Shown piece after piece: positions 5,575 to 59,517 of a stretch of DNA of 64,000 nucleotides (its first letter is position 1; every line of letters begins with the position of its first letter). Under the pieces are notes generated by a model. The model ran no database searches and had not been told where the DNA came from. It worked only from the letters and a program-made list of their open reading frames with translations. Position numbers and translations under genes: made by a program. Source of the DNA: Liquidambar formosana (taxonomy: Eukaryota; Streptophyta; Magnoliopsida; Saxifragales; Altingiaceae); the NCBI GenBank assembly GCA_039720395.1, contig CM077832.1, forward strand, positions 27,267,763 through 27,331,762, read 5' to 3'.

Positions 5575-7235
5575 TGTTGGGAATCGAACAAAGAGGGAAA
5601 AATAGAAGTGCGGAATATAAAAATTTTCCCTACGATTCCCAATCCCATGAATCTAACTATGCATAACACAAAATCAAACCCTAACTACGAAGAGGGTTAG
5701 AACACTTACAAGATTTTTGTCTTCTCCGTTTTGCTCCAAGATTCTACTCCGGACAGCGATGAATGAGCAGCCCAAGTGTGCTGCCTCCAACGGTATCCAC
5801 ACCTAGCTAGAGCTTCAAGCCTTTTCTTTCTTCTTCCTTGTTGTTGCTAGAGGTGGAGAAGAGAGAGAGAGAGAAGAGAGCCTCCAAGGGGCTGGACGGC
5901 TAGGGTCTATTGTGCAAGCCTCTTATGCCATGTCACACATAAGTGTGACTTATATAGGCAGCCCACTAAAGGGGGCTGGCCATGGGGAAGAAACCCTAAT
6001 AGGGTTATGTGTAATTACTCTTAATTGCACATTAACCCCTATTATTTGTATCAAATACAAATAGGCCCATAAAGAACTATTCTTTATTCACTAAAACCCT
6101 TTCTCTCATAGACTTTAAAGCCCTTCTTGCATGATCAGTGTGTGACCCATTGGGTTCACATCATTAAGTAGTAGGAATAGCACGAGGTGTGCACAATGGA
6201 ACTCTTTCCATTTAGGGTCTAATTGGAACTCCTTCCAATTCCCTAATTGATTATAACTCACTTATATCAATTAGGGCTTCTACTAACCATGAGTAACACC
6301 TAGCATATGGCTCATGGTGTGGTCCTTAATGAGGTGAATAGTCATTTACAAAGAACCCTTCTGTTATAGTTTATAGGTTACAATTGCATCCTTCCTTCAA
6401 CACAATGTCTCCAACTGAACTAATAGGACATGGAAGTCTGTCAAGTCCCTAGTTCAATTACTTTATACTCATTCATAGATATCAACTCATTGATGAACTA
6501 ATGGAAACTCTTTTCCACATTCATCCTACCATGGCCATGGATTTAATGAGTTATATTATGAATGCTATATGAGACATTCTCTCTCTTTTTCCTGAGAGTG
6601 ATGGATCCCTTGTTGATCACTCACATGCCTTCATACACATAGTAGTAGGGCCAATGAACACCTTTGCAGACCCCTGAATAGGATCTGCACTTAGTGTTAT
6701 CAAACTTCTAAAGCTACATGCATAAGGCAACTATGGTGTCTCAGGTCTAAGGATTACTTGTACCACTATAACAATGAGAAACTGATTGACAGGCAGGAAA
6801 AAACTCCATTCAGTTTATCTCATATCTTTGGTCACATTCAGTTTACCTATTCTTATAATAGGCACCCACTTGTTGGTTGTAGTGTCTCCACACAAATAGC
6901 TTGAGACTAGCTATCCTCCTATAGAGTCAACCTAACAAGTGCTAGTCCTATGGTTCATTACTGTCCATCATAGTGAACCTTCAACTAGGAATGCTTTAGG
7001 AGTTTAGTACAGAGATATATCTATAGTCTCAAAATTACAACTCTTTGTAATTCCATATTCTCAACTCTAACTCCATGGACATATTATGTAAATATAAATG
7101 ATGCATATAAACATAATAGAATAAGCCCTTTTATTAAATCGATAATAAATGTGACATACATAAATGAAATCAAATGATTGTTCCTAATCCCTAAACAATC
7201 ATCTCTATGATTGGCTCTAGGGCATAATCCTAACA
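5575..7235 (-). repeat. E1 3' LTR (left end, reverse)
   Basis: 1661 bp, starting TGTTGGGAATCG and ending CCTAACA on the + strand. Read on the minus strand it is a group I LTR like E0 and E3, with the TATATAAG box, the GTCACAC/GTGTGAC dyad and a CT-rich tract. The reversed polypurine primer follows at once. Confidence 0.95.
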
Positions 7236-10150
7236 ATCTCCCACTTGCACTAAAGCCAATCGACCATGTATCGCATACCTATCTTCTCAAGATGTTGGTC
7301 TTAGACATAACCAATTATGTTTTAAAGCTTTAGTCAGTAGGTCTACAAAAACTTATGTAGATAATATCTTCTGTAATGTATCTATTACCTCTTCCAATGA
7401 TTCCTCTAATCACTTGGAATTGTCACTCTATGAGTTTGGACTTTTGATGAGACCGTGATTCCTATACTTGAGCTATAGACCCATTGTTGTCACAAAACAA
7501 GGTGTGGGCAACTCAATGGAAGGAACAACTCCAAGTTCTAAATGAACTTATAGATCCAAACAGTCTCCTAGACAATGCGACAATTAATTCACCCTTAATA
7601 ATGGAATCCACTGTATCTTTCATACAGTTCTTCCATTAAGTATTTCACCAACTAAAGTGAATATAAAATATACCCCATATGGATTATATCCAAATCCATA
7701 TACCCATCTACTATGAGTTTACAATTTCCATATACAATCCAATATTCCAAATTTGAATTGATTGATAACTATTTGTAACAATTACAACATAATAGATATC
7801 AGGTTCAATACATAGTGTAGAATAAGGCTTCTTAACACTTTAAGAACCTTACTTGTGTTATCCTAGGGCACATGCCCTTGAATAATGAATTCTTATCTGA
7901 AGTAAATCAGACCTCCCTTAGAATTCTCCATGTTGAACTCCTTCAACATTTCAACTATGTTTGATGATTTGGAGATACTTAGCAATCTATATGATCTATC
8001 TCTATAGATCTTATTGGATGCTTCTGCCAAATCTTTCATGAATTAGCTTTTCTCCAAAAACTAAAACTTTACATTAGATAACATTCATATATCATTCATA
8101 ATGATTATGATGTCATCTATACTTAGGATAAAGAAAAACGATCGAACTCCCACTAACCTTTTATACACTCATGGTCCATCTATACAATGAGAGAAATCAA
8201 ACAATTTGATTACTTCAACTTTATAGATGTTCTAATTATGAGAGCCTTGTAGTCTAGTAATAGACTTCTATAACTTACACACTTTTATGGTTTTTCACCA
8301 TTTGATATAACATCTTTATATCCTTTTTGACATATCTCATATTCAAAATGTGTGTTTATAGATAACAAGATCCAAATGGATTTCAGCATAGCTATTATCA
8401 AACAAGTTTCTTTATAGACAACTTTTTGCCTATGTTGAAAACATTCTTAAATAGCCAAGCCTTTTAGGTCTCTACCTATCCATATTGGATTTAATGACTC
8501 TTAGTCATTTCTCAAGTTGATGTGAAACATCGTCTAGTCATAATCAATAGGATTATCTTGGTGATCTTTATCACCAAAGAACAATTCTTTCACATTCTAA
8601 TAGAGATACAATATCTCTCTTATGTTAAGAAATATCCAATTTGATCTATGAAAAGATTGTAGTGTATTTAAGGGTTTTTGTCTCAAGAGAGACAAGGGTT
8701 GGATCTTTGTTCGTTTGTGGCTTTACAGACAATTCTATAAATTCTATCTACTTTTGCATCTTTCTTGAATGAACTCTTTCTCAAGAAAATCCAGCAAACA
8801 TCCTAATGGACAACTTTTGTTCATTAGAGTAATAGAAATACTATCCCAACCACTTTTGGGATATACCACAATTCAACACTTACTTGACCTTATTTCCAGA
8901 TTGTCTACATTATGTTTCCAGACAAACGTAGCACAAGCCCAAGCCTTAACTTCTTTAAGTTGGGTTTCTTCCCATATCATATCTGATATAATTGGGACAA
9001 AACTGGAGTGAACCCTAAATTATCAATATGTAGCAATTTTAAGGTATATCCTAGATGGATACATTAGTAAAACTCATCATGGATCAAACCATATCTTAAT
9101 AGGGTTCAATTCGTTCTCTTAGATTCACCATTGAGCTATGGTATTCTAAGATGAGTCTACTGTAATTGAATGCATGCTCTACATGACTATATACATCACA
9201 ATGTATTAGTCAAATTATAAATGTAACTCTTTCACTTCACCAAGTAAAAGATGGGTTTGGTCATCTCATAACCAAGTCATAATCGTTACATTTAAATGAG
9301 AGTCTCTACATCTCTTGTATTCTCAGAATATGTTGCATTCGCTCTAATTAGTCATTTAAATTCAGAAATCAAATTTCTGGAATGTCTTAAATGACTTAGT
9401 TAAGAAATAAGTTCCCAAAATTAATCTAGCAACTCTTGCTCTATTAAAATTTTTAAAGGTAACTTATTATCTACTTAACTTTCTGCTTCGATTTAGATTA
9501 CACTAGAATCCAAAAACCAAGAAGCAGAACTAACCAACAATTTAGTTTAGAGCATGAACCAAAACTTTAAAAGGTTGGTTCTTCTAGGAAGACTGATACT
9601 TTATCAATTTCCCTTTACGATACCTTATGTTTACTACAAAATAATTATATTTCTTTGTCTTTGACTTTTCAAGACTTGCTTTCCTCTATGCTTTCATTTT
9701 AAATCACATCTAGCTTCTCAAGCTATTCTATGTGATTAATCATTTTTCAAAAGAATGATTATTAATAAACAACTTTTATTACATCCTAGTCCAGAAGAAG
9801 TCCTTTACAAGTACTATACTTTATAGTATTATTTTACTCACAATACAACCTTTGTATGTGATGTAGGACATCAAAGGCACTTGCATTTACTAATTTTGCT
9901 TCTGAAGCTCATTAGTCATCAATACTATCATATAGCATGGCAACAAGATGCCAATTGCGCATAGTGTCTTTTTCTTCTTAGGATGTTTTATGGAGGGCCT
10001 TTAATAAAAGGCCTAATAGCATATAAACAATCTTTTGGAATTGAGAACAATTCTCAATTTCCTAAGTCAATCAAAGAAATCGGGTTTAGTCAAACTATCA
10101 ATATCCTATATTAGGAAATAGGGGTTTTGAGGTGAGTAATTAGGTAATCT
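7236..10150 (-). pseudogene. E1 decayed pol region
   Basis: Starts with the reversed polypurine primer. 7236 to about 8688 matches the E0 internal region (1-1447) in reverse complement. 8700-10150 is AT-rich with no long frame. One region near 8790-8930 still aligns loosely with the region around 43870-43990 of E4 (integrase to RT linker), so it is decayed pol. The frames in it are chance. Confidence 0.65.
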
Positions 10151-13100
10151 ACATAAACAAAGAATTAGATTTCATTTTTATCCATAATGATTGGGTCTTT
10201 AATCATATGGTACCTCCCACTATTTTATCAAATTCCATACACCCTCTAATGGAATTCGGGAATCTCATTCCTAATGGGGATTGGGGTCCCACTGTGACTT
10301 AGAAGCCTCACATGTTAGTTTCTTGACTTCTAACCCACAATAAGAAGACAACTCTTTGTCTATTGCTTCATAAGCAAGTTCCAATCATTTTGCCTCTAGG
10401 GAACATACACCTCACATGTTAGTTTCTTGGAATACTTCCCTAGTTAAGTTAAACCCATCATTCACACAGGTATGTTTCGCCAAATATATACCTCACATTT
10501 TAGTTTCTTGGTATATACCAGTTTAGGCACCCCATGATATCTCATATGTGATAGTTTCAAGTAATGTCTTTAACATGGGTAGCTCCTACATGTCTGCAGC
10601 CAGGTACCCACATTAAGGGACGTTAGATGATCCTATAATGATGGAAGGCAATGAAGAATTCATTCCCTAATGACTTCTCCATTTTCAACTTAATATTAAA
10701 TAAGAGGGGTTTTAAAGGGTCTCATCAAATTAACATGCATCCTATGTATCAAAATTTAAACATATAAATTATGCTATTTATAATCATACATCTCATGCTA
10801 TTATAAATCATACATCACATGCTATTATATATCAACATATATAAAGTACCATATTTTGATATTTGTCCCTAAGTGAATAGGTAACATATACCAAACTATG
10901 GTATTGGAGCTAATACAATTATCTCATAAATTTAAGCTCCCACTATGATGATTATGGACTTTGAGAGGATTCAATCCAAGCCAATAGATTGAATCCAAGG
11001 TCTAAGGTGGGTGTAGGTGATCGTAAAATAAACCATTCGTAACATGCATGCTTTCTTGAAAAACTTCTCTAAGCTTTCAAGTCCTTCAATCTGCTCCCTT
11101 GGCTTGATGGTCTCCACCATTGGCTTGTTGGTCTCCACCATTGGCTTGTTGGGCTCCATCATACTCCTTTGGGTCCACCATGCTCCTTAGTGCGCTCTCG
11201 ATTACATAACATTTACATAATTTAAAGAAAGGGATACATAAGGGGAATGTGGGGTACATAAGAGAATGATAGAGAGAGAGGGAAGGTGGCATGCAAGCCC
11301 CAAATAATAAATTACATCACCATAATAAAATTACAACTCTTGAAAAATTATTACAACCCATTCATAAGACGGCCAATCACAATTGGTTTAAGGGGTATAG
11401 TCCATAATCATCATCCAAACACATACATACAATCTCATTGCATAATGTAAAGAAAAACTGTAAGCATTAAAACATATGGGCATTATGGTAATTCTCTTGA
11501 ATGATTTACATTAATCTCATTAATGCATCCTAATCTTATTAGGTTTAAACAAAAATATCCAGAATTAAATAAAGTCTTAACCTTTAAGACATTTAGTTTC
11601 AATTAATCAAATTAATAGAAACATATAAAGTTTCCTAAAATAACTCTAATATCCAATATTAGGGTTTCCTTATTTAAACAAAACAATTTCATTTAATTAA
11701 GAATTTCGAGATTTTAATTTAATCCCCAATTGCATTTTAAACCATTTAAAACATTATAAAATTAATCAATATTGATTAAATAATTAACATGGGAATTAAA
11801 TAAAATCAATTAAATGATGAATTAGTGTATTAGGGTTTCCTAAAACCCTAAACCCTAAATGCATAACCCTAAACCCTAAATGCAAGCCCTAATCATTAAA
11901 TGCCTTATGATTGGTCATTTAATGTCCAATCATTAAAACCCTAGGTTCATATGGTATTTAATAAAAGGGATTAGGGTTTAATTAATGCCAAATAGGGTAT
12001 TAATTACCCTTAATTAATTACACTAATTAGGGTTTCCAAAACCCTAACCCTAGACATCATTAATGGTATTAATTATGCCCTAACAATCAATAACCATGAT
12101 TGGTCATTTAATGACCAATCATTAACTCTTAATTAAGGTAATTAATATTCCAATTAGGGTTTTAATTAATGCCATAATGAAATTAGGGTTTCATCATTAA
12201 CTCAAAATTAGGGTTTCATCCTTAACTCTATGCAGCCGTCACTACCAGGGGGCTGCCTGAGCTTGGCTAGGCTGCCATGGCCACCAACGACTGTGGGAGG
12301 CCATGGCCAGTCATGGGAGAACATCCTAGGGGTGTGGGACAAGCCTCTGGACATGTGAGAAGTGGTGGAAGTGGCTGCCATCATCAAGAACAATCAGGGT
12401 TTCCAAAACCCATTGCTGGAGCCATTGTTGCAGACCTTGAAGGTCACAATAGCTTCTAAATCCTTATCAATTCGACTCCTCCATTGAAACCAGCTTTTGT
12501 ATCATGTCCCTACATGAAATACTAAGCTAATAGAAGAGGTTTGGATGATCAAATCATCACCAATTGTTCTAAACAATTAAAACAACAGTAGGCTGCCCAG
12601 AATTTGACAGCACACTGTCCATGGTCAGAAATTGATTTAAAACCCAGCAAGATGAATGAATTAGGCTACCAAACGAATTTTCCCAGTATCCTACATGTCT
12701 TAGGAAACTAATGCAATTGGTTTCATGCAATTTGGAGTTCCCTAACTCAAGTTCTAATCAAAACTCCATTGATGACTTTTCTGCAGAGAAAATCTGCTAT
12801 GCTGTTCATGAAAAATTTTCAAACTTTTTGAATCTTTTTCCATCAAAACCTTTTTGAAACTTAAAGAAAATCATATACACATGATATATAATGATCCTAC
12901 AATGATCTTCCATCATAAATACAGCAGCTTTAATTAGAATTAATTGCAAGAACCTTAGGGTTCTAAAACCCAGATTCAGCCTCCATAGTGTTCTTCTCCT
13001 TCTTCCTTCTGTTCCAGCATCTTAATCCAATTATGATGCATCTAAATGCTTGGGAACCTTTCCCTACCATGTCTAGAACATAACCCAAGTGGTGGCAACC

Positions 13101-20143: not shown

Positions 20144-20383
20144 TCACTTCTTTCGTAAGTCATGGACATGTGCTGCTTCCACTGCTTCCTGAATATCTTC
20201 CCTGCAAAACCCAAGTCTTGTGTCCTTGATAAGGTCATAAATCCTTTCCCTGCATAGGGTTTCTCTTTCACCCAAGCTAGTCTTCAACCATGCCTTGTAT
20301 TCAGGGCTCATGACATAAGGCCCATCAGTGTTTTCAACTCGAGTCAGTTTCAGCTGGTCAGTCCATCTAGTCTTGGCCCACTT
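20144..20383 (-). pseudogene. 3' part of antisense DUF7745-like gene (cut off by E2)
   Basis: On the minus strand 79 codons run from the E2 junction to TGA at 20146-20144: KWAKTRWTDQLKLTRVE at the start, YVMSPEYKAWLKT in the middle, AAHVHDLRKK at the end. If E2 and one CACTT copy are removed, this frame continues directly from the frame at 29923-30129. It is therefore the C-terminus of the same gene. It lies antisense to Gypsy A pol, tail to tail with integrase. Function unknown. Confidence 0.75.
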
Positions 20384-22082
20384 TGTTAGGATTATGCCCT
20401 AGAGCCAATCATAGAGATGATTGTTTAGGGATTAGGAACAATCAATTGATTTCATTTATGCATGTCACATTTATTATTGAATTAATAAAAGGGCTTATTC
20501 TATTATGTTTATATGCATCATTTATATTTACATAATATGTCCATGGAGTTAGAGTTGAGAATATGAAATTACAAAGGGTTGTAATTTTGAGACACTAAAT
20601 ATATCTCTGTACTAAACTCCTAAATCATTCCTAGTTGAAGGTTCACTATGATGGACAGTAATGAACCATAGGACTAGCACTTGTTAGGTTGACTCTATAG
20701 GAGGATAGCTAGTCTCAAGCTATTTGTGTGGAGACACTACAACCAACAAGTGGGTGCCTATTATAAGAATAGGTACACTGAATGTGACCAAAGATATGAG
20801 ATAAACTGAATGGAGTTTTAACCTGCCTGTCAATCAGTTTCTCATTGTTATAGTGGTACAAGTAATCCTTAGACCTGAGACACCATGGTTGTCTTATACA
20901 TGTAGCTTTAGAAGTTTGATAACACTAAGTGCAGATCCTATTCAGGGGTCTGTAAAGGTGTTCATTGGCCCTACTGCTATGTGTGTGAAGGCATGTGAGT
21001 GATCAACAAGGAATCCATCACTCTCAGGAAAAAGAGAGTGAATGTCTCATACAGCATTCATTGAATATAACTCATTAAATCCATGGGCCCATGGTAGAAT
21101 GAATATGGAAAGGAGTTTCCATAAGTTCATCATTGAGTTGATATTAATGAATGAGTATAAAGTAATTGAAATAGGGACTTGACAGACTTCCATGTCCTAT
21201 TAGTTCAATTGGAGACATTGTGTTGATGGAAGGATGGAATTGTAACCTGTAAACTATAACAGAAGGGTTCTTTGTAAATGACTATTCACCTCATTAAGGA
21301 CCACACCATGAGCCATATGCTACGTGTTACTCATGGTTAGTAGAAGCCCTAATTGATATAAATGAGTTATAATCAATTAGGGAATTGAAAGGAGTTTCAA
21401 TTAGACCCTTAATGGAAAGTGTTCCATTGTGCACAACTTGTGCTGTTCCTACTACTTGATGATGTGAACCCAATGGGTCACACACTGATCATGCTAAGAG
21501 AGCTTGATTGTCTATGAGAGAAAGGGTATAAGTGATTAAAGAAAAGTTCTTTAAGGGGCTAATTTGTATTTGATGCAAACTAGTGGGCTAATTGTGTAAT
21601 TAAGAGTAATTACAAAAATTAGATTAGGGTTTGGAATCCCTCCCTTGGCCGGCCCTATTAGTGGGCTATATAATGCCCACTATAAGGTGATGACATCATC
21701 ACAATCACTCCTTCCCAAGGGCTGGCTGGAAAAATTACAGCTCTCCCTCTCTCTCTCTCCCTCTTCTCCACCTCTAGCAACCATAAGGAAGAAGAAGGAA
21801 AGGACAACAAGCTCTAGCTAGGTGTGGATACCGTTGGAGGCAGCACACTTGGGCTGCTCATTCACCGCTGTCCGAAGACAAAGCTTGGAGCAAAAAGGAG
21901 AAGACAAAGCTTGGAGCATAAAGGAGAAGACATTAATCAAACTGTAAGTAATCCCAACTCTCTTGGTAGTTAGGGTTTATGGTTTTTGTATTAAGCATAA
22001 TTAAGATTCATGGGTTTGGGAATCATAGGAAAAATTTTAAATTCCGCCTTTGTGTTTTTCCTCTCTAGTTTGATTCCCAACA
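20384..22082 (+). repeat. E2 5' LTR (group II)
   Basis: From TGTTAGGATTATGCCC to GATTCCCAACA. The TATA box (TATATAA, 21667-21673) lies inside a 6-bp inverted repeat, GTGGGC/GCCCAC (21661-21680). A perfect 7-bp dyad follows at 21687-21702 (GTGATGA, CA, TCATCAC), then a CT-rich tract. Group I LTRs have a dyad of different sequence at the equivalent place. Confidence 0.96.
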
Positions 22083-22083
22083 G

Positions 22084-22095
22084 TGGTATCAGAGC
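22084..22095 (+). other. E2 primer-binding site
   Basis: TGGTATCAGAGC, one base after the LTR; complementary to the plant initiator Met tRNA 3' end. Confidence 0.96.
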
Positions 22096-25000
22096 CATGG
22101 TTATGCCTAATACAAACTGCATATGGGCTGTAATTCATGGTAAATTGATTGGTTAATAAATCTGGAATTTATGTTCATGCATTAGAATGGTTTCCCTCTC
22201 ATGGCCAAACCTAGGGTTTATGAACCCTAGGTTAATTCTCCTTCTACTCCTCTTCTAAAATAGTTTTAGGGCTGCTGGTTATTCAAAAGTTGAATGGGGA
22301 TTGAGTTTGGAGAAGATGATGAACAATTTTTATGATAGTCATGAAAAATCGTCATCTTGTTTTGCATGCCAAAATCAGAGTTCTTCTCCAAAATTTTCGA
22401 GCCATATATGGTTAGAAAGCTCTTTGAATCAGCTTTACAGCCCAACAAACGGTTCGTCAATCCGAGTTTTGTAGTGAAAGTTATGAATTTTTTACTACAG
22501 GCTGTCAGGGAAGACAGTTTTGCTCGGGAATGATGTAACAGCCACAATTGTGAGTTTTTGATGGAGATCAAAGGCATGGCAATGGTTGCCACCACTTGGG
22601 TTATGTTCTAGACATGGTAGGAAAGGGTTCCCAAGCATTGGGATGCATCATAATTGGATTATGATTCTAGAACAGAAGGAAGAAGGAGAAGACCACCATG
22701 TTTGAATCTGGGTTTTAGAACCCTAGGGTTCTTGCTACTGTTATGATCAGACACTTCTGTACAATTGATGAATAATCATTATAGGATGATGATATATGAT
22801 GTATAGATCATATTCTTTAATAATCAAAGGAGTCTTGATGCATAAAGAATCAAAAAGTTTGATTTCTTGGAAGAACACAGCAGGCTGTTTTTCTGCAGAA
22901 AGTCATCAATGGAGTTTTGTTCATATCTTGAGCTAGGGAACTCCAAATTGCATGAAACCAATTTTATTAGTTTCCTAAGACATGTAGGATGCTAGGAAAA
23001 ATAATTTGGTAACCTGAATTAATCATCTTGCTGGGTTTTAAATCAATTTGTGATCATGTACAGTGTGCTGTCAAATTCTGGACAGCCTACTGTTCTTGAA
23101 TTGTTTAGAACAATTGGGGATGATTTGATCATCCAAACCACTTCAATTAGCTTAGTAATTCATGTAGGGACATGATACAAAAGCTGGTTTTGTTGGTGGA
23201 GTCGAATTGATTAAGTTTAAGAAACTTTTGTGACCTTGGAGGTCCTCCCATGGTGGTGCCAGCAAGGGTTCTTGAAACCCTAATGTTCTTTGAAGAAGAC
23301 AGCCCTCTTGGCCACCCCACACGTGTCCATGGGCTTGGCCCACACCCTGGCTTGAGTCCCCCTTTGTTGGCCATGGCCTCCCATGGCCTGGCCAAGCCAT
23401 GGCAGCCCACTATAGGTGGCAGCAGCCTTAGGGTTTCTTAGGAAACCCTAATTCCCTTTAATGATGAAACCCTAAATCTATTAATGGCATTAATTAAAAC
23501 CCTAATTGAGCAATTAATTACCATAATTAAAGTGTTTAATGATTGGTCATTAATTGACCAATCATGGTTATTAATCATTAGGGTGTAATTAATTGCATTT
23601 ATGATGTCTAGGGTTTAGGGTTTAGGAAACCCTAATTCATATTAATTAAACCCTAATTCTATTAATGCATTAATTAATAACTAAACCTAGTAATTAATGT
23701 GTCTAACCTAGGGTTAAATGATTGGTCATTAATGACCAATCATGATCATTAATGGTTTAGTAATTAATCATTGGCATTTAATAGGTTTAAGGTTTAGGGT
23801 TTTAGAAACCCTAATTAGTGCATATTAATTAGGAGTAATTAATATCCTAGGTGGCATTAATTAAACCCTAATCCTAATCATTAATACCGTATAAACCTAG
23901 GGTTTAAATGATTGGTCATTAATTGACCAATCATAAGGCATTTAATGCATTAGGGTTACACTTAGGGTTTAGAGTTAATGCATTTAGGGTTTAGGGTTTT
24001 AGGAAACCCTAATGCACTAATTAATTAATAAAATGATTTATTTAATTCCGAAATTGATTATTTAATTAATGGTGATTAATTTTATATTGTTTTAAATGGT
24101 TTAAAACACAATTGAGGATTAAATAAAAATCTAAAATTTTTAATTAAATGAAATTGTTTTGTTTAATTAAAGAAACCCTAATATTTGATATTAGAGTTTA
24201 ATTTGGGGACTTTAACTGTATCAATTGATTTGATCAATTGAAATTGAATGTCTTAAATGTTAAGACTTAATTAATTCAGGAACTTTTGCATATCCTAATA
24301 AGATTAGGACACATTAATGAGATTAATGAAAACCAATCAATAGAGTTACCATAAATGCCCAGATGTTTATTGCTTACAGTTTTTCCTTTATTATGCAATG
24401 TGATTGTATGGTTATGGATGGATGATGATTATGGACTATGCCCTTAAACCAGTTGTGATTGGCCGTCTTATGAATGGGTTGTATTAATTTTCAAGAGTTG
24501 TTAATTTTGGTGATGTATTATTTATTTGGGGCTTGCATGCCACCTTCTTCTTCTCTCTCTCTCTATCATTCTCTTATGTACCCCACATTCCCCTTATGTA
24601 TCCCTTTCTTTAAATTATGTAAATGTTATGTAATCGAGAGCGCACTAAGGAGCATGGTGGACCTTAACAAGCCTATGGTGGAGACCATCAAGCTAATGGA
24701 AGAGATTGAAGGACTTGAAAGCTTGGAGAAGACTTTCAAGAGAGCATGCTATGTTTTGAATGAATGTTTTACGATCACCTACACCCACCTTAGACCTAGG
24801 ATTCAATTCATTGGCTTGGATTGAATCCTCTTAAAGTCCATAATCATCATAGTGGGAGCTTTTAATAAGATTAATAGTGATAGCTCCAAATCCAAAGATC
24901 GTTATATGTCACCTTATAGGGACTAATATCGATAAGTGGATTACATATATAATGTTGTTATATATTTTTATTTATATGCATGAGATGTATGTTAAATTAG

Positions 25001-25605
25001 TTTAATTTGATGAGACCCTTAAAACCCCTCTCATTTAATATTAAGTTGGAAATGGAGAATACATTAGGGAATGGATTCTTCATTGCCTTCCATCATTATA
25101 GGATCATCTAACGTCCCTTAATGTGGGTACCTGGCTGCAGACATGTAGGAGCTACCTATATTAAAGACATTACTTGAAACTATCACATATGTAGATATCA
25201 TGGGGTGCCTAAGCTGGTATATACCAAGAAACTAACATGTGAGGTATATATTTGGTGAAACATACCTGTGTGAATGATGGGTTTAACTTAACTAGGGAAG
25301 TATTCCAAGAAACTAACATGTGAGGAATATGTACCCTAGAGGCAAAATGATTGGAACTTGCTTATGAAGCAATAGACAAAGAGTTGTCTTCTTACTGTGG
25401 GTTAGAAGTCAAGAAACTAACATGTGAGGCTTCTAGGTCACAGTGGGACCCCAATCCCCATTAGGAATGAGATTCCCGAATTCCATCAGAGGGTGTATGG
25501 AATTTGATAAAATAGTGGGAGGTACCATATGATTAAAGACCCGATCATTATGGATTAAAAATGAAATCTAATTCTCTATTTAATTTTTATATGTAGTTCA
25601 TAGAA
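22096..25605 (+). other. E2 structured untranslated leader
   Basis: About 3.5 kb with no supported protein. In order it holds: AT-rich sequence shared by all copies; a cluster of CCATGG palindromes (about 23249, 23368-23400); a tandem region of about 185-bp period with TGATTGGTCATT palindromes at 23539, 23718 and 23908 plus TTTAGGG-like motifs; a conserved block at 24530-24830 with the remnant of a 21-bp minisatellite; and three shared-loop hairpins at 25218-25250, 25300-25330 and 25403-25435. Gag starts 170 bp after the last hairpin. Confidence 0.85.
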
Positions 25606-26154
25606 ATGGCTCACCTGAACCCGTTATCCAAAATATTGGACATCAACTGTTTGACTGGACCAAATTGTCTTGATTGGCTTAGGAATCTAAAAATTGTTTT
25701 GGATTCCAAGAATCTTACCTATGCACTTCATAATCCACTTCCCATTGCTCCTGCTGAGGCTGCAACTCAGCAAGAGAAAGACGCTTACCAGAAGCGCATG
25801 GACGACGATCTCATGGCAAGGTGCTATATGATGGTATTTATGAGTCTCGAGCTTAAGAAGCAACACGAGTCCATGGGAAGTGCTTACGAGATTTTTATCA
25901 ACATACAAGAGTTGTATGGGAAAGAATTCTTGCTTGAATTTAATGAAGCTGCTACTTCCAAGTCTAAGCTCAAGCCTAAGGGCAAGGGTATAGGCAAGGG
26001 TAAGAGTACCCAGAGGAAGAAGAAAGGTAACAACAAAGCCAAAGGAACCTGTTTTCACTGCGGCAAGGATGGGCACTGGAAACGTAACTGCCGGGAGTAT
26101 CTGGATACTCTAAAGAACCAACCTTTGGAAGGTATGGATCATGCTCTAAACTAA
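25606..26154 (+). pseudogene. E2 gag, internally deleted copia nucleocapsid protein
   Basis: 182 codons beginning MAHLNPLSKILDINCLTGPN and ending EGMDHALN. Compared with the 290-codon E4 copy it keeps the N-terminal copia gag region (LDWLRNLKIVL) and the basic C-terminus with an intact CCHC knuckle (CFHCGKDGHWKRNC). About 100 residues of the capsid middle, from roughly residue 108, are missing. The frame is kept across the deletion. It may still bind RNA through the knuckle but is unlikely to build a capsid. Confidence 0.88.
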
Positions 26155-28218
26155 ATGTTAGTTTTGCTTCCACTTGGGTACTTAATTCTGATGTGAATTT
26201 TGAATTCCATGTAGAATCTAGTGGGAAGTAGAAGGTAGAGTAAAGGCGGATCAACCCTACAAGTGGGGAATGGAGCAAATTTTGCTGCAGTGGGGCTTGT
26301 TGCTTGACTCTACCTAATGGAGTAGTTTAGAAATAATAGTTGGCTATCTTTACATTCCAGAAGTTATCAGAAACATTAATTTTATTTCAGTTTTATCTAA
26401 ACAAGGTTTTAGTTTGATTTAATAAATGTTTTCTATTAAATGAAGAGTTCATTACTTCTGGAGTTTATGTGGATGGCCTTTATTTTCTAAACTTTATTGC
26501 AAATATGAATTGCAATGGAGCATGATAGTTCTAAATTGAATGCTAATAAACCTAAGAGAACAAGATATACATAATGATGTATGTAGAAGTTTCTCTTACT
26601 TTACAACCTTTACCAATGATTCATTCTAGGTTTGGGTGTGTATACTTAATGAAGTACAAGTCTGAAATATTTGAAAGGTTCAAAGAATTTAGATATGAAG
26701 TAGAGAAACAAACCGGTAAAAGTATTAAAGCTCTTCGATTGGATCAAGGAGGCAAATATTTAACCGGTCAATTTTCAGATCAACTTGTTCAAACAGGCAT
26801 TCAATCACAATGGACACCTCTTGGAACACCATAACTAAATGGTGTGTCAAAAAGGAGGAAGAGGACCTTATTGGATATGGTCCGGTCCATTATAAGTTAC
26901 AACGACCTAATATTATCCTTGTTAGGATATGCCCTAGAAATTGCCACGTACCTGTGAAACAGAATTCAAACCAAGGCTGTCCCTTAGGACCTATATGAGA
27001 TATGAAAAAGGGAAGCACCAAACCTTAAGCATGTTAAGGTATGGGGATGCACTACATATGTAGAGACATATAATGCAACCAAATTGGAAATCAAGATAAC
27101 TTAAATGTAGGTTTGTGTATTATCCTAAAAGGAGTTTAGGATATCATATCTATCATCCTGATGAACAAAAGTGTTTGTTAGTAAGTTTTCAATCTTTCTT
27201 GAAAAAGAGTTTATTCAAGAAGGAGATAACAACAGGAAAATAGAACTCAAAGAGTTGTCTAATGAGACACAAACCAACATTGATGCAACCACTGTCCCTG
27301 TTGAGACAAAACCCATCATTGTATCATGATTGTACAAAGGGTTAGTGGGAGTGCGATCACATTTATGGTCCTATAAGTGAATGACGTTCTACTTATTAGG
27401 GAATAATGTAGAGACGTTGTCAAAAGTGAAAAATTGGTTTTTCACAGAGTTTCTTCATAAAAGATTTGGAAGAAGCATCCTATATTCTGGGAATAGAGGT
27501 CTATAGAGTAGATCTTAAAGGATGCTAAGTCTCTCCCAATCGAAGTACATAGACAAGATTTTGAAAGAGTTCAAAATGCATGATTTCAAAAGAGGTCTAA
27601 ATTCCTGTCAGACATGGAATCAAGTTGTCTATAACTAAAAGACAAGATATCAGTTTTGCTGTAAATGTTACGAGCAGATATCAGGCAAACCCAGATAAGG
27701 AACACTGGGAAGCAATCAAGGCTATTCTTAAGTTCTTGAGAAGAACTAAAGGACTTATGCCTTGCCTAGGGAGAAAGAAACTTGAAATGGTTGGTATAAC
27801 GGATTCAGATTTTCAATCTGACGATGATGATAGGAGATTAACATCGAGATATGTTCTCACCTTAAATGGTGGAGCTATAAATTTGAGCGCATTGCTACAT
27901 GTTTGGATGAGTAAGTTCATTGCAGAACTAGGAGTGGTTCCTAACATTGAGAAGCCTTTACTATTGTTTTTGTGACAACAATAAGGCTAGTGCTCAAGAC
28001 AAGGATCCACGGTCTCATCAAAAGTCCAAACTTTAAGTGGCGATTCCAATTGATTAGAGAGATCATTGGAAGAGATGACATATGCATATAGAAGTTTAAT
28101 ACAACAGAGAATAAAGAATACCCCTTCACTAAGGCTATAACCCAAGTGTGTTGGATCACCACCGACAGGATATGGGTATAAGATACATGGTGGATTGGCT
28201 ATAGTACAAGTGGGAGAT
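26155..28218 (+). pseudogene. E2 pol remnants and polypurine primer
   Basis: Scraps of copia pol in a region far shorter than a full pol. 26574-26834 is an integrase-core fragment with FERFKEFRYEVEKQTGKSI and a changed catalytic region (LDQGGKYL for the usual Asp-Arg-Gly-Gly). About 26880-27300 matches copia pol downstream of the integrase core. 27625-27975 is RT/RNase H (DISFAVNVTSRYQ, LKFLRRTKG, DSDFQSDDDDRRLTSRYV). Protease and the RT catalytic core are absent. AAGTGGGAGAT (about 28208-28218) is the plus-strand primer. Confidence 0.85.
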
Positions 28219-29917
28219 TGTTAGGATTATGCCCTAGAGCCAATCATAGAGATGATTGTTTAGGGATTAGGAACAATCAATTGATTTCATTTATGCATGT
28301 CACATTTATTATTGAATTAATAAAAGGGCTTATTCTATTATGTTTATATGCATCATTTATATTTACATAATATGTCCATGGAGTTAGAGTTGAGAATATG
28401 AAATTACAAAGGGTTGTAATTTTGAGACTCTAAATATATCTCTGTACTAAACTCCTAAATCATTCCTAGTTGAAGGTTCACTATGATGGACAGTAATGAA
28501 CCATAGGACTAGCACTTGTTAGGTTGACTCTATAGGAGGATAGCTAGTCTCAAGCTATTTGTGTGGAGACACTACAACCAACAAGTGGGTGCCTATTATA
28601 AGAATAGGTACACTGAATGTGACCAAAGATATGAGATAAACTGAATGGAGTTTTAACCTGCCTGTCAATCAGTTTCTCATTGTTATAGTGGTACAAGTAA
28701 TCCTTAGACCTGAGACACCATGGTTGTCTTATACATGTAGCTTTAGAAGTTTGATAACACTAAGTGCAGATCCTATTCAGGGGTCTGTAAAGGTGTTCAT
28801 TGGCCCTACTGCTATGTGTGTGAAGGCATGTGAGTGATCAACAAGGAATCCATCACTCTCAGGAAAAAGAGAGTGAATGTCTCATACAGCATTCATTGAA
28901 TATAACTCATTAAATCCATGGGCCCATGGTAGAATGAATATGGAAAGGAGTTTCCATAAGTTCATCATTGAGTTGATATTAATGAATGAGTATAAAGTAA
29001 TTGAAATAGGGACTTGACAGACTTCCATGTCCTATTAGTTCAATTGGAGACATTGTGTTGATGGAAGGATGGAATTGTAACCTGTAAACTATAACAGAAG
29101 GGTTCTTTGTAAATGACTATTCACCTCATTAAGGACCACACCATGAGCCATATGCTACGTGTTACTCATGGTTAGTAGAAGCCCTAATTGATATAAATGA
29201 GTTATAATCAATTAGGGAATTGAAAGGAGTTTCAATTAGACCCTTAATGGAAAGTGTTCCATTGTGCACAACTTGTGCTGTTCCTACTACTTGATGATGT
29301 GAACCCAATGGGTCACACACTGATCATGCTAAGAGAGCTTGATTGTCTATGAGAGAAAGGGTATAAGTGATTAAAGAAAAGTTCTTTAAGGGGCTAATTT
29401 GTATTTGATGCAAACTAGTGGGCTAATTGTGTAATTAAGAGTAATTACACAAATTAGATTAGGGTTTGGAATCCCTCCCTTGGCTGGCCCTATTAGTGGG
29501 CTATATAATGCCCACTATAAGGTGATGACATCATCACAATCACTCCTTCCCAAGGGCTGGCTGGAAAAATTACAGCTCTCCCTCTCTCTCTCTCCCTCTT
29601 CTCCACCTCTAGCAACCATAAGGAAGAAGAAGGAAAGGACAACAAGCTCTAGCTAGGTGTGGATACCGTTGGAGGCAGCACACTTGGGCTGCTCATTCAC
29701 CGCTGTCCGAAGACAAAGCTTGGAGCAAAAAGGAGAAGACAAAGCTTGGAGCATAAAGGAGAAGACATTAATCAAACTGTAAGTAATCCCAACTCTCTTG
29801 GTAGTTAGGGTTTATGGTTTTTGTATTAAGCATAATTAAGATTCATGGGTTTGGGAATCATAGGAAAAATTTTAAATTCCGCCTTTGTGTTTTTCCTCTC
29901 TAGTTTGATTCCCAACA
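28219..29917 (+). repeat. E2 3' LTR
   Basis: 1699 bp, almost identical to 20384-22082, ending CCCAACA before the CACTT duplication. It contains the same TATA, dyad and CT-rich tract. Confidence 0.96.
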
Positions 29918-38179: not shown

Positions 38180-38557
38180 TGTCACACCCCATTTTTGCAC
38201 CACCTTACTAGGGCTCATCATTTCATGCATGTTTTTGTTTTGTTTTTGAGTCTAGTCACTTGCATTAGTTTTCTAGAGTCACAAGGACAATGGATATGAA
38301 TTTTGGTTCAAATTGGAGTTGATCTTGAGGGATAATAAGAGCTTTTGTGACTTGAGGGGCATAATCGTTTTTTAAGTCCCAAACTTTTCATTTGACCTTG
38401 GAGTGATCTCCAAATTGTCAATTGGAGTTCATATGGATGCATAAGAGGTATTTCTAGGTTCAATTTGGTAAGTCAATGGCTCGGGATTAAAATGGCTCGA
38501 TGTAGTTCAAGTTGGTTAATTGACCCTTCCTTGGGTTAGCTCTAATTGACTCACAAT

Positions 38558-40218
38558 TGTTAGGATTATGCCCTAGAGCCAATCATGGAGATGATTGTTT
38601 AGGGATTAGGAACAATCATTTGATTTCATTTATGTATGTCACATTTATTATTGATTTAATAAAAGGGCTTATTCTATTATGTTTATATGCATCATTTATA
38701 TTTACATAATATGTCCATGGAGTTAGAGTTGAGAATATGGAATTACAAAGAGTTGTAATTTTGAGACTGTAGATATATCTCTGTACTAAACTCCTAAAGC
38801 ATTCCTAGTTGAAGGTTCACTATGATGGACAATAATGAACCATAGGACTAGCACTTGTTAGGTTGACTCTATAGGAGGATAGCTAGTCTCAAGCTATTTG
38901 TGTAGAGACACTACAACCAACAAGTGGGTGCCTATTACGAGAATAGGTACACTGAATGTGACCAAAGATATGAGATAAACTAAATGGAGTTTTATCCTGC
39001 CTGTCAATCAGTTTCTCATTGTTATAGTGGTACAAGTAATCCTTAGACCTGAGACACCATAGTTGCCTTATGCATGTAGCTTTAGAAGTTTGATAACACT
39101 AAGTGCAGATCCTATTCAGGGGTCTGCAAAGGTGTTCATTGGCCCTATTGCTATGTGTATGAAGGCATGTGAGTGATCAACAAGGGATCCATCACTCTCA
39201 GGAAAAAGAGAGAGAATGTCTCATATAGCATTCATAATATAACTCATTAAATCCATGGCTATGGTAGGATGAATGTGGAAAAGAGTTTCCATGAGTTCAT
39301 CAATGAGTTGATATCTATGAATGAGTATAAAGTAATTGAACTAGGGACTTGACAGACTTCCATGTCCTATTAGTTCAATTGGAGACATTGTTTTGAAGGA
39401 AGGATGCAATTGTAACCTATAAACTATAACAGAAGGGTTCTTTGTAAATGACTATTCACCTCATTAAGGACCACACCATGAGCCATATGCTAGGTGTTAC
39501 TCATGGTTAGTAGAAGCCCTAATTGATATAAGTGAGTTATAATCAATTAGGGAATTGGAAGGAGTTCCAATTAGACCCTAAATGGAAAGAGTTCCATTGT
39601 GCACACCTCGTGCTATTCCTACTACTTGATGATGTGAACCCAATGGGTCACACACTGATCATGCAAGAAGGGCTTTAAAGTCTATGAGAGAAAGGGTTTT
39701 AGTGAATAAAGAATAGTTCTTTATAGGCCTATTTGTATTTGATACAAATAATAGGGGTTAATGTGCAATTAAGTGTAATTACACATAACCCTATTAGGGT
39801 TTCTTCCCCATGGCCAGCCCCCTTTAGTGGGCTGCCTATATAAGTCACACTTATGTGTGACATGGCATAATAGGCTTGCACAATAAACCCTAGCCGTCCA
39901 GCTCTTTGGAGGCTCTCTTCTCTCTCTCTCTCTTCTCCACCTCTAGCAACAACAAGGAAGAAGAAAGAAAAGGCTTGAAGCTCTAGCTAGGTGTGGATAC
40001 CGTTGGAGGCAGCACACTTGGGCTGCTCATTCACCGCTGTCCGGAGTAGAAGCTTGGAGCAAAACGGAGAAGACAAAAAATACTGTAAGTGTTCTAACCC
40101 TCTTCGTAGTTAGGGTTTGATTTTGTGTTATGCATAGTTAGATTCATGGGATTGGGAATCGTAGGAAAAATTTTTATATTCCGCACTTCTATTTTTCCCT
40201 CTTGTTCGATTCCCAACA
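38558..40218 (+). repeat. E3: solo copia LTR (group I)
   Basis: 1661 bp from TGTTAGG to CCCAACA with ACAAT on both sides (38553-38557 and 40219-40223). No internal region, so it is the product of LTR-LTR recombination after insertion in LTR B. It keeps the TATA box (about 39836) and GTCACAC/GTGTGAC dyad. Confidence 0.96.
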
Positions 40219-44868: not shown

Positions 44869-45741
44869 TTAGTTTAGAGCATGATCCATACCTTCCGAAG
44901 GTCGGCTCTTTAGAGTATCCAGATACTCCCGGCAGTTACGTTTCCAGTGCCCATCCTTGCCGCAGTGAAAACAGGTTCCTTTGGCCTTGTCAGTATTACC
45001 TTTCTTGACACCTCCCTTTGGCTTCAAGTTCTTCTTCTTCTTCCCTTGGGTACTCTTACCCTTTCCTTTGCCCTTGCCCTTAGGCTTGGGCTTGGCCTTG
45101 GAAGTAGAAGCTCCATCAAATGCGAGCAAAGAACCTTTTCCCTTCTTCATTGTCTCCTCAGTCATCTTGAGCAAATTGTGCAGCTCGGGGAGAGTGGGCT
45201 CAAGCTTGTTCATATGAAAATTCATTATGAACGGCCCAAATGAATCAGGAAGGGACTGCAATATAATGTCTGAACACATATCAGCTTCAATGATCACATC
45301 AAGCTTTTCAAGCTGCTCGATATGGTTGATCATTTTCAAGGTGTGATCAGTCACAGACGAACCCTCATTCATCCTTGCCTTGAATAGATCCTTGACAATA
45401 TTGTACTTTGCGGTCCTACTTTGCTCCCCATACAACTCTTGTAAGTGGAGAAAGATGTCGCGAGCATTTTTCATGGACTCATGTTGCTTCTGAAGCTCAG
45501 GGCTCATGGATGCCATCATATAGCATCTTGCCTTCAAATTGTCGTCCATGCGCTTCTGATAAGCGTCTCTCTCTTGCTGAGTTGCAGTCTCAGCCAGTGC
45601 CTCAGGAAGTGTGCCATCAAGTGTGTAGGTAATCTTTTCGGAAGTTAAAACTATTTTCAAGTTTCTCAGCCAATCAAGATAGTTTGGTCCAGTCAAACGG
45701 TTGATGTCCAATATTTTGGATAACGGGTTGAGGTGAGCCAT
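44869..45741 (-). CDS. E4 gag: copia capsid/nucleocapsid protein
   Basis: Intact frame of 290 codons, ATG at 45741, start MAHLNPLSKILDINRLTGPN. Residues about 1-60 are the copia gag N-terminus (YLDWLRNLKIVLTSEKITYT). About 70-210 are the helical gag region with LHLQELYGEQSRTAKY, SSVTDHTLKMINHIEQLEKL and DIILQSLPDSFGPFIMNFHM. About 215-260 form a Lys/Gly/Pro-rich basic linker (KPKGKGKGKGKSTQGKKKK). Near the C-terminus is a perfect CCHC knuckle, CFHCGKDGHWKRNC. It should package element RNA into cytoplasmic particles. It is the only undamaged retrotransposon gene in the window, separated from its LTR promoter by a 3.4-kb leader. Confidence 0.93.
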   Translation of the reverse strand: MAHLNPLSKILDINRLTGPNYLDWLRNLKIVLTSEKITYTLDGTLPEALAETATQQERDAYQKRMDDNLKARCYMMASMSPELQKQHESMKNARDIFLHLQELYGEQSRTAKYNIVKDLFKARMNEGSSVTDHTLKMINHIEQLEKLDVIIEADMCSDIILQSLPDSFGPFIMNFHMNKLEPTLPELHNLLKMTEETMKKGKGSLLAFDGASTSKAKPKPKGKGKGKGKSTQGKKKKNLKPKGGVKKGNTDKAKGTCFHCGKDGHWKRNCREYLDTLKSRPSEGMDHALN

Positions 45742-48700
45742 TTCTATGAACTACATATAAAATTAAATAGAGAATTAGATTTCATTTTTAATCCATAATG
45801 ATCGGGTCTTTAATCATATGGTACCTCCCACTATTTTATCAAATTCCATACACCCTCTAATGGAATTCGGGAATCTTATTCCTAATGGGGATTGGGGTCC
45901 CACTGTGACCTAGAAGCCTCACATGTTAGTTTCTTGACTTCTAACCCACAGTAAGAAGACAACTCTTTGTCTATTGCTTCATAAGCAAGTTCCAATCATT
46001 TTGCCTCTAGGGTACATATTCCTCACATGTTAGTTTCTTGGAATACTTCCCTAGTTAAGTTAGGCCCATCATTCACACAGGTATGTTTCACCAAATATAT
46101 ACCTCACATGTTAGTTTCTTGGTATATACCAGCTTAGGCACCCCATGATATCTATATATGTGATAGTTTCAAGTAATGTCTTTAATATGGGTAGCTCCTA
46201 CATGTCTGCAGCCAGGTACTCACATTAAGGGACGTTAGATGATCCTATAATGATGGAAGGCAATGAAGAATCCATTCCCTAATGTATTCTCCATTTCCAA
46301 CTTAATATTAAAATAGAGGGGTTTTAAGGGTCTCATCAAATTAACTAATCTAACATACATCTCATGCATTTAAATAAGAAATATATATATAACAACATTA
46401 TATATAATCCAATCATCGATATTAGTCCCTATAAGGTGACATATAACGATCTTTGGATTTGGAGCTATCTCTATTAATCTCATTAAAAGCTCCCACTATG
46501 ATGATTATGGACTTTAAGAGGATTCAATCCAAGCCAATGAATTGAATCCTAGGTCTAAGGTGGGTGTAGGTGATCGTAAAACATTCATTTGAAACATAGC
46601 ATGCACTCTTGAAAATCTTCTCCAAGCTTTCAAGTCCTTCAATCTCCTTCATTGGCTTCATGGTCTCCACCATAGGCTTGTTGGGCTCCACCATGCTCCT
46701 TTAGGTCCACCATGCTCCTTAGTGTGCTCTCGATTACATAACATTTACATAATTTAAAGAAAGGGATACATAAGGGGAATGTGGGGTACATAAGAGAATG
46801 ATAGAGAGAGAGAAGAAGGTGGCATGCAAGCCCCAAATAAATAATACATCACCAAAAATTAACAATTCTTGAAAAATTAATACAACCCATTCATAAGACG
46901 GCCAATCACAATTGGTTTAAGGGGTATAGTCCATAATCATCATCCATCCATAACCATACAATCACATTGCATAATAAAGGAAATAACTGTAAGCAATAAG
47001 CATATGGGCATTCATGGTAACTCTATTGATTGGTTTTCATTAATCTCATTAATGTGTCCTAATCTCATTAGGAAATGCATAATCTCCAAAATTAATTAAG
47101 TCTTAACAATTAAGACATTTAATTTCAATTAATCAAATCAATTGAAACATTTAAAGTCCCCTAATTGAACACTAATATCAAATATTAGGGTTTCTTTAAT
47201 TAAACAAAACAGTTTCATTTAATTAAAAAATTCCAGATTTTAATTTAATCCTAAATTGTGTTTTAAACGATTTAAAACATTATAAAATTAATCACCATTA
47301 ATTAAATAATCAATTTCGGAATTAAATAAAATCATTTTATTAATTAATTAGTGCATTAGGGTTTCCTAAAACCCTAAACCCTAAATGCATTAACTCTAAA
47401 CCCTAAGTGTAACCTTAATGCATTAAATGCCTTATGATTGATCAATTAATGACCAATCATTTAAACCCTAGGTTTATACGGTATTAATGATTAGGATTAG
47501 GGTTTAATTAATGCCACCTAGGATATTAATTACTCTTAATTAATATGCACTAATTAGGGTTTCTAAAACCCTAAACCTTAAACCTATTAAATGCCAATGA
47601 TTAATTACTAAACCATTAATGATCATGATTGGTCATTAATGACCAATCATTTTAACCCTAGGTTAGACACATTAATTACTAGGTTTAGTTATTAATTAAT
47701 GCATTAATAGAATTAGGGTTTAATTAATACGAATTAGGGTTTCCTAAACCCTAAACCCTAGACATCATAAATGCACTTAATTATACCCTAATGATTAATA
47801 ACCATGATTGGTCAATTAATGACCAATCATTAAACACTTTAATTAAGGTAATTAATAGCCAAATTAGGGTTTTTAATTAATGCAATTAATGAATTAGGGT
47901 TTCATCATTAATGGGAATTAGGGTTTCCTAAGAAACCCTAAGGCTGCCGCCACCTATAGTGGGCTGCCATGGCTTAGCAAGGCTGCCATGGCTTGGCCAG
48001 GCCATGGGGGGGCCATGGCCAGCAAAGGGGAATTCAAGCTAGGGTTTGGGCCAAGCCCATGGACACGTGTGGAGTGGCCAAAAGGGCTGTCTTCTTCAAA
48101 GAACATTAGGGTTTCAAGAACCCTTGCTGGCACCACCATGGGAGGACCTCCAAGGTCACAAACGTTTCTAAAACTTGATCAATTCGACTCCACCAACAAA
48201 ACCAGCTTTTGTATCATGTCCCTACATGAATTACTAAGCTAATTGAAGTGGTTTGGATGATCAAATCATCCCCAATTGTTCTAAACAATTCAAGAACAGT
48301 AGGCTGTCCAGAATTTGACAGCATACTGTCCCTGATCACAAATTGATTCAAAACCCAGCAAGATGATTAATTCAGGTTACCAAATTATTTTTCCTAGCAT
48401 CCTACATGTCTTAGGAAACTAACAAAATTGGTTTCATGCAATTTGGAGTTCCCTAGCTCAAGATATGAACAAAACTCCATTGATGACTTTCTGCAGAAAA
48501 ACAGCCTGCTGTGTTTTTCAAGAAATCAAACTTTTTGATTCTTATATGCATCAAGACTCTTATAAAACTTAAAGAAAATCATACATACAATATGTATAAT
48601 TATCCTATAAAGGATTTACATCAATTTTACAGAGATATCATATCAGAACAGTAGCAAGAACCATAGGGTTCTAAAACCCAGATTCGAACTCCATGGTGTT

Positions 48701-59000: not shown

Positions 59001-59517
59001 TCCATCATTATAGGATCATCTAACGTCCCTTAATGTGGGTACCTGGCTGCAGACATGTAGGAGCTACCCATATTAAAGACATTACTTGAAACTATCACAT
59101 ATGTAGATATCATGGGGTGCCTAAGCTGGTATATACCAAGAAACTAACATGTGAGGTATATATTTGGTGAAACATACCTGTGTGAATGATGGGTTTAACT
59201 TAACTAGGGAAGTATTCCAAGAAACTAACATGTGAGGAGTATGTACCCTAGAGGCAAAATGATTGGAACTTGCTTATGAAGCAATAGACAAAGAGTTGTC
59301 TTCTTACTGTGGGTTAGAAGTCAAGAAACTAACATGTGAGGCTTCTAGGTCACAGTGGGACCCCAATCCCCATTAGGAATAAGATTCCCGAATTCCATTA
59401 GAGGGTGTATGGAATTTGATAAAATAGTGGGAGGTACCATATGATTAAAGACCCGATCATTATGGATTAAAAATGAAATCTAATTCTCTATTTAATTTTT
59501 ATATGTAGTTCATAGAA
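56005..59517 (+). other. E5 structured untranslated leader
   Basis: Three GGCCGAACCTGGGGTTT palindrome repeats at 56111, 56256 and 56394 (about 140-bp spacing). CCATGG cluster 57239-57300. TGATTGGTCAT palindromes at about 57429, 57608 and 57798 with TTTAGGG-like motifs. Conserved block 58420-58740. Shared-loop hairpins at 59130-59162, about 59212-59242 and 59315-59347. No protein supported. Confidence 0.85.

Follow-up and report, generated by a model that had tools for sequence, protein, structure and literature searches.

Three hairpins with one shared loop upstream of gag in Liquidambar copia retrotransposons: a candidate packaging domain of the genomic RNA

The retrotransposons of the window

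The window, by which we mean the whole analysed stretch of 64,000 nucleotides, contains the LTR retrotransposons E1, E2, E4 and E5. Judged by their LTRs, by the tRNA-type primer-binding site TGGTATCAGAGC that is found in 4/4 elements, and by a copia-type Gag, these are Ty1/copia elements. The LTR pairs of E2, E4 and E1 are 99.8%, 99.94% and 99.5% identical, respectively, and by this measure they are young. PF14223 is matched by the Gag proteins of E4 and E5, not by the short Gag of E2, and among the best 120 of 209 matches the organism-named Gag relatives come nearly all from flowering plants. The main features are as follows.

20383..22082, plus strand: 5' LTR of E2, 99.8% identical to the E2 3' LTR
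22084..22095, plus strand: primer-binding site of E2, TGGTATCAGAGC, by sequence match
25606..26154, plus strand: gag ORF of E2, 182 aa, zinc knuckle kept, PF14223 not matched
28218..29917, plus strand: 3' LTR of E2, pair of the E2 5' LTR
44869..45741, minus strand: gag ORF of E4, 290 aa, with PF14223 and zinc knuckle
10300..10517, minus strand: hairpin triplet of E1 (non-autonomous subfamily), from loop search and pairing
45911..46128, minus strand: hairpin triplet of E4, from loop search and pairing
59130..59347, plus strand: hairpin triplet of E5, from loop search and pairing

Some observations concern the elements as such. E2 has a short Gag ORF (182 versus 290 aa in E4) yet LTRs of 99.8% identity, so that it resembles a further non-autonomous type that moved recently. 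Positions 38556-40218 of the window hold an E1-type LTR-like stretch (97-98%) that has no obvious LTR partner and is perhaps a solo LTR, and positions 1-3105 and 5575-8683 form a large inverted pair of 98% identity, in which two E1-type 3' ends stand face to face. One copia Gag (P0003) is located on a 6.6-kb contig labelled as the bacterium Modestobacter marinus, and plant contamination is likely from the look of this contig.

Three hairpins with one loop

The 17-nucleotide sequence AAGAAACTAACATGTGA occurs three times 5' of gag in E2 (25226-25242, 25307-25323 and 25411-25427, with spacings of 81 and 104), each time as the loop of a hairpin, and two small hairpins lie between the second and the third.

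25216..25252, plus strand: hairpin H1, 10-bp stem including two G-U pairs, loop at 25226-25242
25292..25339, plus strand: hairpin H2, 7-bp inner and 6-bp outer stem, loop at 25307-25323
25358..25372, plus strand: small hairpin hp4, TTGCTT/AAGCAA, from the predicted fold
25374..25389, plus strand: small hairpin hp5, between H2 and H3, AGACAA-AGAG-TTGTCT
25392..25446, plus strand: hairpin H3, 9-bp inner and 9-bp outer stem, loop at 25411-25427

An earlier note on this DNA had described the same loop on three different stems, each of them matching, and both observations are borne out. The 8-mers that flank the loops of E2 pair at 8/8, 7/8 and 8/8 positions with G-U included, each stem being different, and when one arm is slid by 1-4 nt, at most 6/8 pairs are left. 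Over all window positions, pairing of 8/8 occurs at a frequency of 0.0012 and of at least 7/8 at 0.0084, and the product of these frequencies for the E2 stems is ~1e-8, a value that has to be read with the similarity of the H1 and H2 stems in mind, which are hence not fully independent. The H2 stem continues outward with CTAGGG/CCCTAG, and the H3 stem continues with nine further pairs past a 1x1 internal loop. The loop is also present three times each in E1, E4 and E5, as the note had reported: when 3 mismatches are allowed, the window yields 12 matches, of which 11 are exact, with 0.5 expected.

Folded singly and compared with shuffles, H2 and H3 of E2 reach z-scores of -3.4 and -6.3, and for both the sense strand folds better than the antisense strand; H1 folded alone is no better than shuffles (z +0.27). 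When the leader is scanned for local folding, the hairpin block averages a z of -0.90 and the part of the leader upstream of it -1.20, and windows at 23493-23943 have a lower z than the H3 window (-3.8), so that the hairpin area is not the most structured one of the leader. The lowest folding z-scores of the leader, on both strands, belong to the stretch 23428-24028, which consists of degenerate tandem repeats with palindromes such as TTGGTCATTAATTGACCAA.

Abundance and conservation of the leader block

Across the host genome of 718 Mb, the loop is found 8,422 times (4,363 + 4,059) at up to one mismatch and the reversed pattern 22 times (17 + 5); by loop count, the hairpin domain of ~230 nt is present in two to three thousand copies in one genome. 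Within 200 kb of contig C1, the triplet occurs in 8/8 copies with flanking sequence, and 23/24 loops are exact. These eight and the four copies of the window form a sample of 12 copies that were chosen without regard to loops, in which 2/612 cells differ in the loops, 11/576 in the stems and 144/5,171 elsewhere. Variable sites number 2/51 in the loops versus 54/433 elsewhere (one-sided P 0.047), and loops varying as much as the surrounding sequence, which the note had named as evidence against its reading, are therefore not what these 12 copies display. The stem sites of the same copies (4/48 variable, P 0.49) are not different from elsewhere. A further 20 loci were fetched by exact loops, and loop conservation among these is biased by that choice.

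24998..25590, plus strand: conserved leader block, with the core at 25026-25525

The core of this block is 91-100% identical in 9 cross-type pairs of four element types, and the part downstream 33-97%. In bins of 100 columns over 24998-25587, E1 shares 91-99% identity with the other elements, whereas other parts of the leader mostly range from 65 to 93%, with an exception of 94-99% near 24593-24664, and gag reaches 69% or less. A leader module of E2 at 22349-22640 matches E1 at 93-94% identity and is nearly unrelated in E4 and E5 (about 32-53%), which suggests that the leaders are assembled from exchangeable modules.

A probable intron upstream of gag

21944..21949, plus strand: candidate 5' splice site within the E2 5' LTR, GTAAGT, the sole one in the LTR-to-gag stretch examined
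25595..25596, plus strand: candidate 3' splice site, an AG that is preceded by a U-rich tract and lies 9 nt before the gag ATG

Exactly one GTAAGT is present from the LTR to gag in 4/4 copies, 135-139 nt before the LTR end, and in a divergent family described below the gag ATG is likewise closely preceded by a T-rich tract with TAG at its end. From the assumed transcription start (TATA+32) to the donor, no ATG is found in E2 and E1; E4 and E5 have TATTTAAA at the corresponding place, and their ATGs nearest the donor are located 227-235 nt before it. Between donor and gag there are 119-137 ATGs, with 72-76 expected by composition, which makes ATG 1.6- to 1.8-fold commoner than predicted across the probable intron in the leaders of E1, E2, E4 and E5. 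The hairpins would sit within this probable intron of 3.5-3.7 kb, and a gag mRNA spliced from the candidate donor to the candidate acceptor would lack them. Retroviral spliced RNA lacks psi.

Covariation with a divergent family

A Citrus Gag query retrieved three loci with 57-62% identity over ~263 residues that rank above the E4-type matches. These loci (L051-L053) were set apart as a divergent family by means of this query and of their leader rather than by a direct comparison of Gag with E4. They carry three hairpins at homologous places upstream of gag (spacing 88 and 107 in L053), and folds of 333 nt from L051 and L053 show all three. Their leader block is 69-71% identical to that of E2, and their shared loop is AAGAAACTATTATGTGA, of which L053 has three exact copies, L051 two exact ones and one with one change, and L052 one exact and two changed ones.

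In an alignment of 7 sequences, 96.8% of cells are paired and 11/53 pairs have changed on both sides; with 10 sequences, 96.8% of 530 cells are paired and two-sided changes affect 10/53 pairs, a covariation that comes from essentially two independent lineages. The doubly changed pairs of the 10 sequences are distributed over H1 (1), H2 (3), hp5 (2) and H3 (4), with both the inner and the outer stem of H3 being hit. The two pairs in hp5 are compensatory when set against the divergent family, and hp4 is uninformative, as it has no two-sided change in any sequence. Slid-stem controls of the 10 sequences give 35-47% paired cells and 0-3 doubly changed pairs, and in 500 shuffles the real values for paired percentage, covariation score and doubly changed cells are never attained; 59/500 shuffles do attain the count of doubly changed pairs, so that this control is weak for that count. 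As aligned, one outer pair of H2, one outer pair of H3 and the outermost pair of H1 are unpaired in the divergent family (alignment pairs 33-69, 117-160 and 224-269). A genome-wide search for an intact loop next to a doubly changed closing pair gave only 2 cases, one of them a pair. The fold is supported by covariation between the two families, and with it the proposal that an RNA structure is under selection passes the test that the note itself had suggested, since the divergent family changes the stems yet keeps the pairing. Conserved RNA stem-loops near gag, as they are looked for in a packaging signal, are thereby present.

Loop classes and their concerted change

Three loop classes can be told apart by letters 10-11 of the loop: AC (AAGAAACTAACATGTGA, in the window), TT (AAGAAACTATTATGTGA, in the divergent family) and TA (AAGAAACTATAATGTGA). 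The latter is found in all three hairpins of elements that are 95-98% identical to E5 outside the loops. The pattern AAGAAACTABNATGTGA has 934 matches in the genome and a control 4. The first 100 of the 934 matches belong to 47 elements, which comprise 17 TA triples, 12 elements with two TA loops (the third loop being unseen), 2 TT triples, 2 mixed elements (TA with TC; TA, TA with TT) and 14 with a single loop, 8 of these being GC, TC or TG. Identical central letters are found in 31/33 elements with at least two loops among these 100 of 934 listed matches. All classes share AAGAAACUA and AUGUGA, both of which were also fixed in the patterns searched, and they differ in the central two letters. 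The variants AT, AA and AG occur 58 times, each isolated in the list as read by eye and one of them being H1 of E1, as expected of later decay.

When two TA-class loci (L054 and L055) are compared with E5, 6/51 loop sites differ, all six being central letters, and only 5 and 11 of 220 others. Across these comparisons, loop letters 10-11 change in concert in the three hairpins of an element. In both loci, the tetraloop of hp5 is GGAG instead of AGAG (E2 position 25380), alongside the loop switch. On the 3' side of one of the two loci (stretch L057), an E2-like gag start (93% over 180 nt) gives way to other sequence, and the stretch on the 3' side of the other (L058) gave no match to the three references or to Gag.

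A subfamily without open gag

From the hairpins to the 3' LTR (3,065 nt), E1 has no stop-free stretch of more than 53 codons in the three forward frames, and gag relics with stops are found there. Judged by downstream sequence, 13/20 of the loci fetched by exact loops are of the E1 type; over ~1 kb downstream, 12 of them are 96-98% and one is 93% identical to E1. The longest stop-free stretch per frame over 1.3 kb is 24-59 codons in all 13 loci, and the best-frame stretch is 256-293 codons in four E4-type loci, 185 in the E2-type and 332-376 in two L012-type loci. Three E1-type copies compared with E4 are 91-99% identical in the hairpin block and 38-70% in the coding part. The H2 stem of E1 contains a single unpaired base, a T at position 25326, a feature of 11/14 copies of the E1 type.

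The E1 triplet, which the earlier note had called somewhat decayed, is more than a decayed copy, as E1 belongs to a separate and numerous non-autonomous subfamily. By these comparisons, a young and numerous subfamily without open gag retains the hairpins, which points to a signal that is needed in cis for copying and not for gag translation. Retention by non-autonomous elements is what a packaging signal should exhibit, and the E1-type copies exhibit it, their mobilisation presumably occurring in trans.

L012 and L024 represent a fourth element type with a leader that is E1-like upstream and E2-like downstream, and with 332-376 codons of open frame on the 3' side of the hairpins. Recombination is common in this element family, and part of the conservation between types could be due to exchange. 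As such mosaic leaders mean that recombination occurs, the case for the hairpins is not rested on identity alone.

Possible function of the hairpin domain

On balance, we lean towards the view that the unspliced copia genomic RNA has a cis-acting domain with the three hairpins as its core, probably a packaging (encapsidation) signal that is read by Gag. Use of the 5' splice site in the LTR and of the 3' splice site just before gag would give a spliced gag mRNA without the domain, and only the genomic RNA would carry it. The same loop would be read three times by one partner, for which the nucleocapsid part of Gag is the most likely candidate, and this partner would select the hairpin-bearing RNA for virus-like particles; Gag from elements with open gag would also carry the RNA of elements without it. 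Of the roles that the earlier note had suggested, Gag binding and packaging appear to fit the hairpins best, and its selected RNA structure is supported.

The main rival is an RNA export or intron-retention element, at which a host factor would be recruited and the unspliced RNA would leave the nucleus. The hairpins indeed lie inside the probable intron and upstream of its acceptor, and non-autonomous elements would require such a role too. Also, the unspliced EVD RNA of Arabidopsis is mostly nuclear according to the available text of that study (PMC8892269), so that genomic RNA needs an exit, and mouse elements use structured transport elements as described in the consulted part of a review (PMC12786077). 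Traces like those seen here would be expected from packaging and from export or intron retention alike. A host factor, however, should hold the loop constant, yet there are three loop classes, each common to the hairpins of one element, as though each element lineage had a partner of its own, and we think that export is rather unlikely. For the packaging signal, these classes allow the tentative idea that the three loops are a lineage-specific address label, in which AC, UA or UU would specify Gag or another partner and all copies would switch together. If this is true, the label would let lineages that compete within a genome distinguish their RNA from that of others, and parasitic non-autonomous elements would copy it.

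It is improbable that the hairpins control gag translation, although each loop contains AUG-UGA, a start with an immediate stop, in all three classes (AUGUGA was also part of the patterns used in the genome search), and stalling of ribosomes at an AUGUAA start-stop has been reported for a plant leader (PMC11915504). The E1 type keeps the hairpins without an open gag, and hence without a downstream ORF to control, the spliced mRNA would lack them, and in E2 and E1 the stretch from TATA+32 to the donor is free of ATG. Translation after a 3.4-kb leader, as the note had suggested, is probably not at issue, since the leader looks like an intron and the gag-less subfamily keeps the hairpins. We also give little credence to the idea that the hairpins, being close to the 3' splice site, regulate splicing; they are located ~150-380 nt upstream of the candidate acceptor, and ACUAAC in the window loop resembles the branch-site consensus, but this match is gone in the TA and TT classes, and a spliced gag mRNA is not needed by non-autonomous elements. 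Dimerisation by kissing of the loop palindrome would agree with the self-complementary ACAUGU, which is present in 11/12 loops of the window, and kissing loops have been proposed for the dimerisation of Ty1 (PMC5454406). ACAUGU is, however, restricted to the AC class and missing from the TA and TT classes, and the loops of one element are identical, which does not permit mutual kissing without self-complementarity; with two of the three classes lacking the palindrome, this form of the dimerisation suggestion is disfavoured and seems very improbable. Recombination or gene conversion might have produced both the conservation and the concerted letters without selection on the RNA, and the mosaic leaders of L012 and L024, E1-type-like upstream and E2-type-like downstream, agree with this; the tracts would nevertheless have to coincide with the 17-nt loop in each of the three hairpins and spare the different stems, and exchange leaves the compensatory stem changes unexplained, so that we regard this as extremely unlikely. 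A pairing of the loop with a fixed antisense site was considered as well and rejected: a conserved partner of this kind was not found, the four leaders having one 8-mer complement in common and the 1.3 kb of the divergent family containing just a single 7-mer complement.

Comparison with known systems

LTR retrotransposons can form most of a plant genome, and the selection of RNA for their particles in plants is barely known. A compact domain that is supported by covariation and comes with natural loop variants and parasites makes RNA selection by plant Gag directly testable, and it is unusual in evolution for three separate loops to switch in concert.

The words 'dimeri', 'psi', 'hairpin' and 'stem-loop' are absent from the consulted main text of a 2025 review on the life cycle of plant LTR retrotransposons (PMC12786077), and no such element is described in the titles and abstract beginnings of the literature searched. 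The loop 20-mer was not found in viral contigs or in a wider collection of genome contigs, and paired-loop pattern searches and a gag search of the viral contigs returned no result. In Rfam 15, the hairpins of E2, L051, L053 and L056 are unmatched up to E = 1, and the E2 leader has only a mir-1006 hit at 24199-24260, with 30.1 bits against a gathering score of 64.

Retroviral psi, such as SL1-SL3 of HIV-1, consists of several stem-loops shortly before gag that are present in unspliced RNA only; its loops are unlike each other, whereas here one loop is present in three copies that evolve together. The constitutive transport elements of retroviruses are structured cis RNAs on unspliced RNA, one of them with a repeated recognition loop. 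The mouse transport elements RTE and MTE can be likened to the hairpins by their description as structured RNA acting in cis on unspliced RNA, in the part of the review consulted (PMC12786077), and differ in that the hairpins have no known host partner and no Rfam match. Yeast Ty1 likewise is an LTR retrotransposon with RNA hairpins, whose kissing loops are proposed to start dimerisation and packaging; as far as the available text goes, these are two hairpins that lie at the 5' terminus and whose apices are complementary (PMC5454406), whereas here three hairpins share one loop that is palindromic in 1/3 classes, ~3 kb downstream of the LTR. The barley copia elements BARE1 and BARE2 resemble the present ones as plant copia elements with a gag-less partner that keeps RNA signals: BARE2 is a parasitic partner that is unable to make Gag and has kept packaging and dimerisation signals, Gag being made from spliced RNA, and three hairpins with identical loops are not described in the accessible portion of that study (PMC3735527). 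The candidate intron in the elements described here differs in being wholly upstream of gag. Taken together, these comparisons suggest that the hairpins belong to an already known kind, the cis-acting leader RNA domain of an LTR element, and that the three-fold concerted loop is unusual for it.
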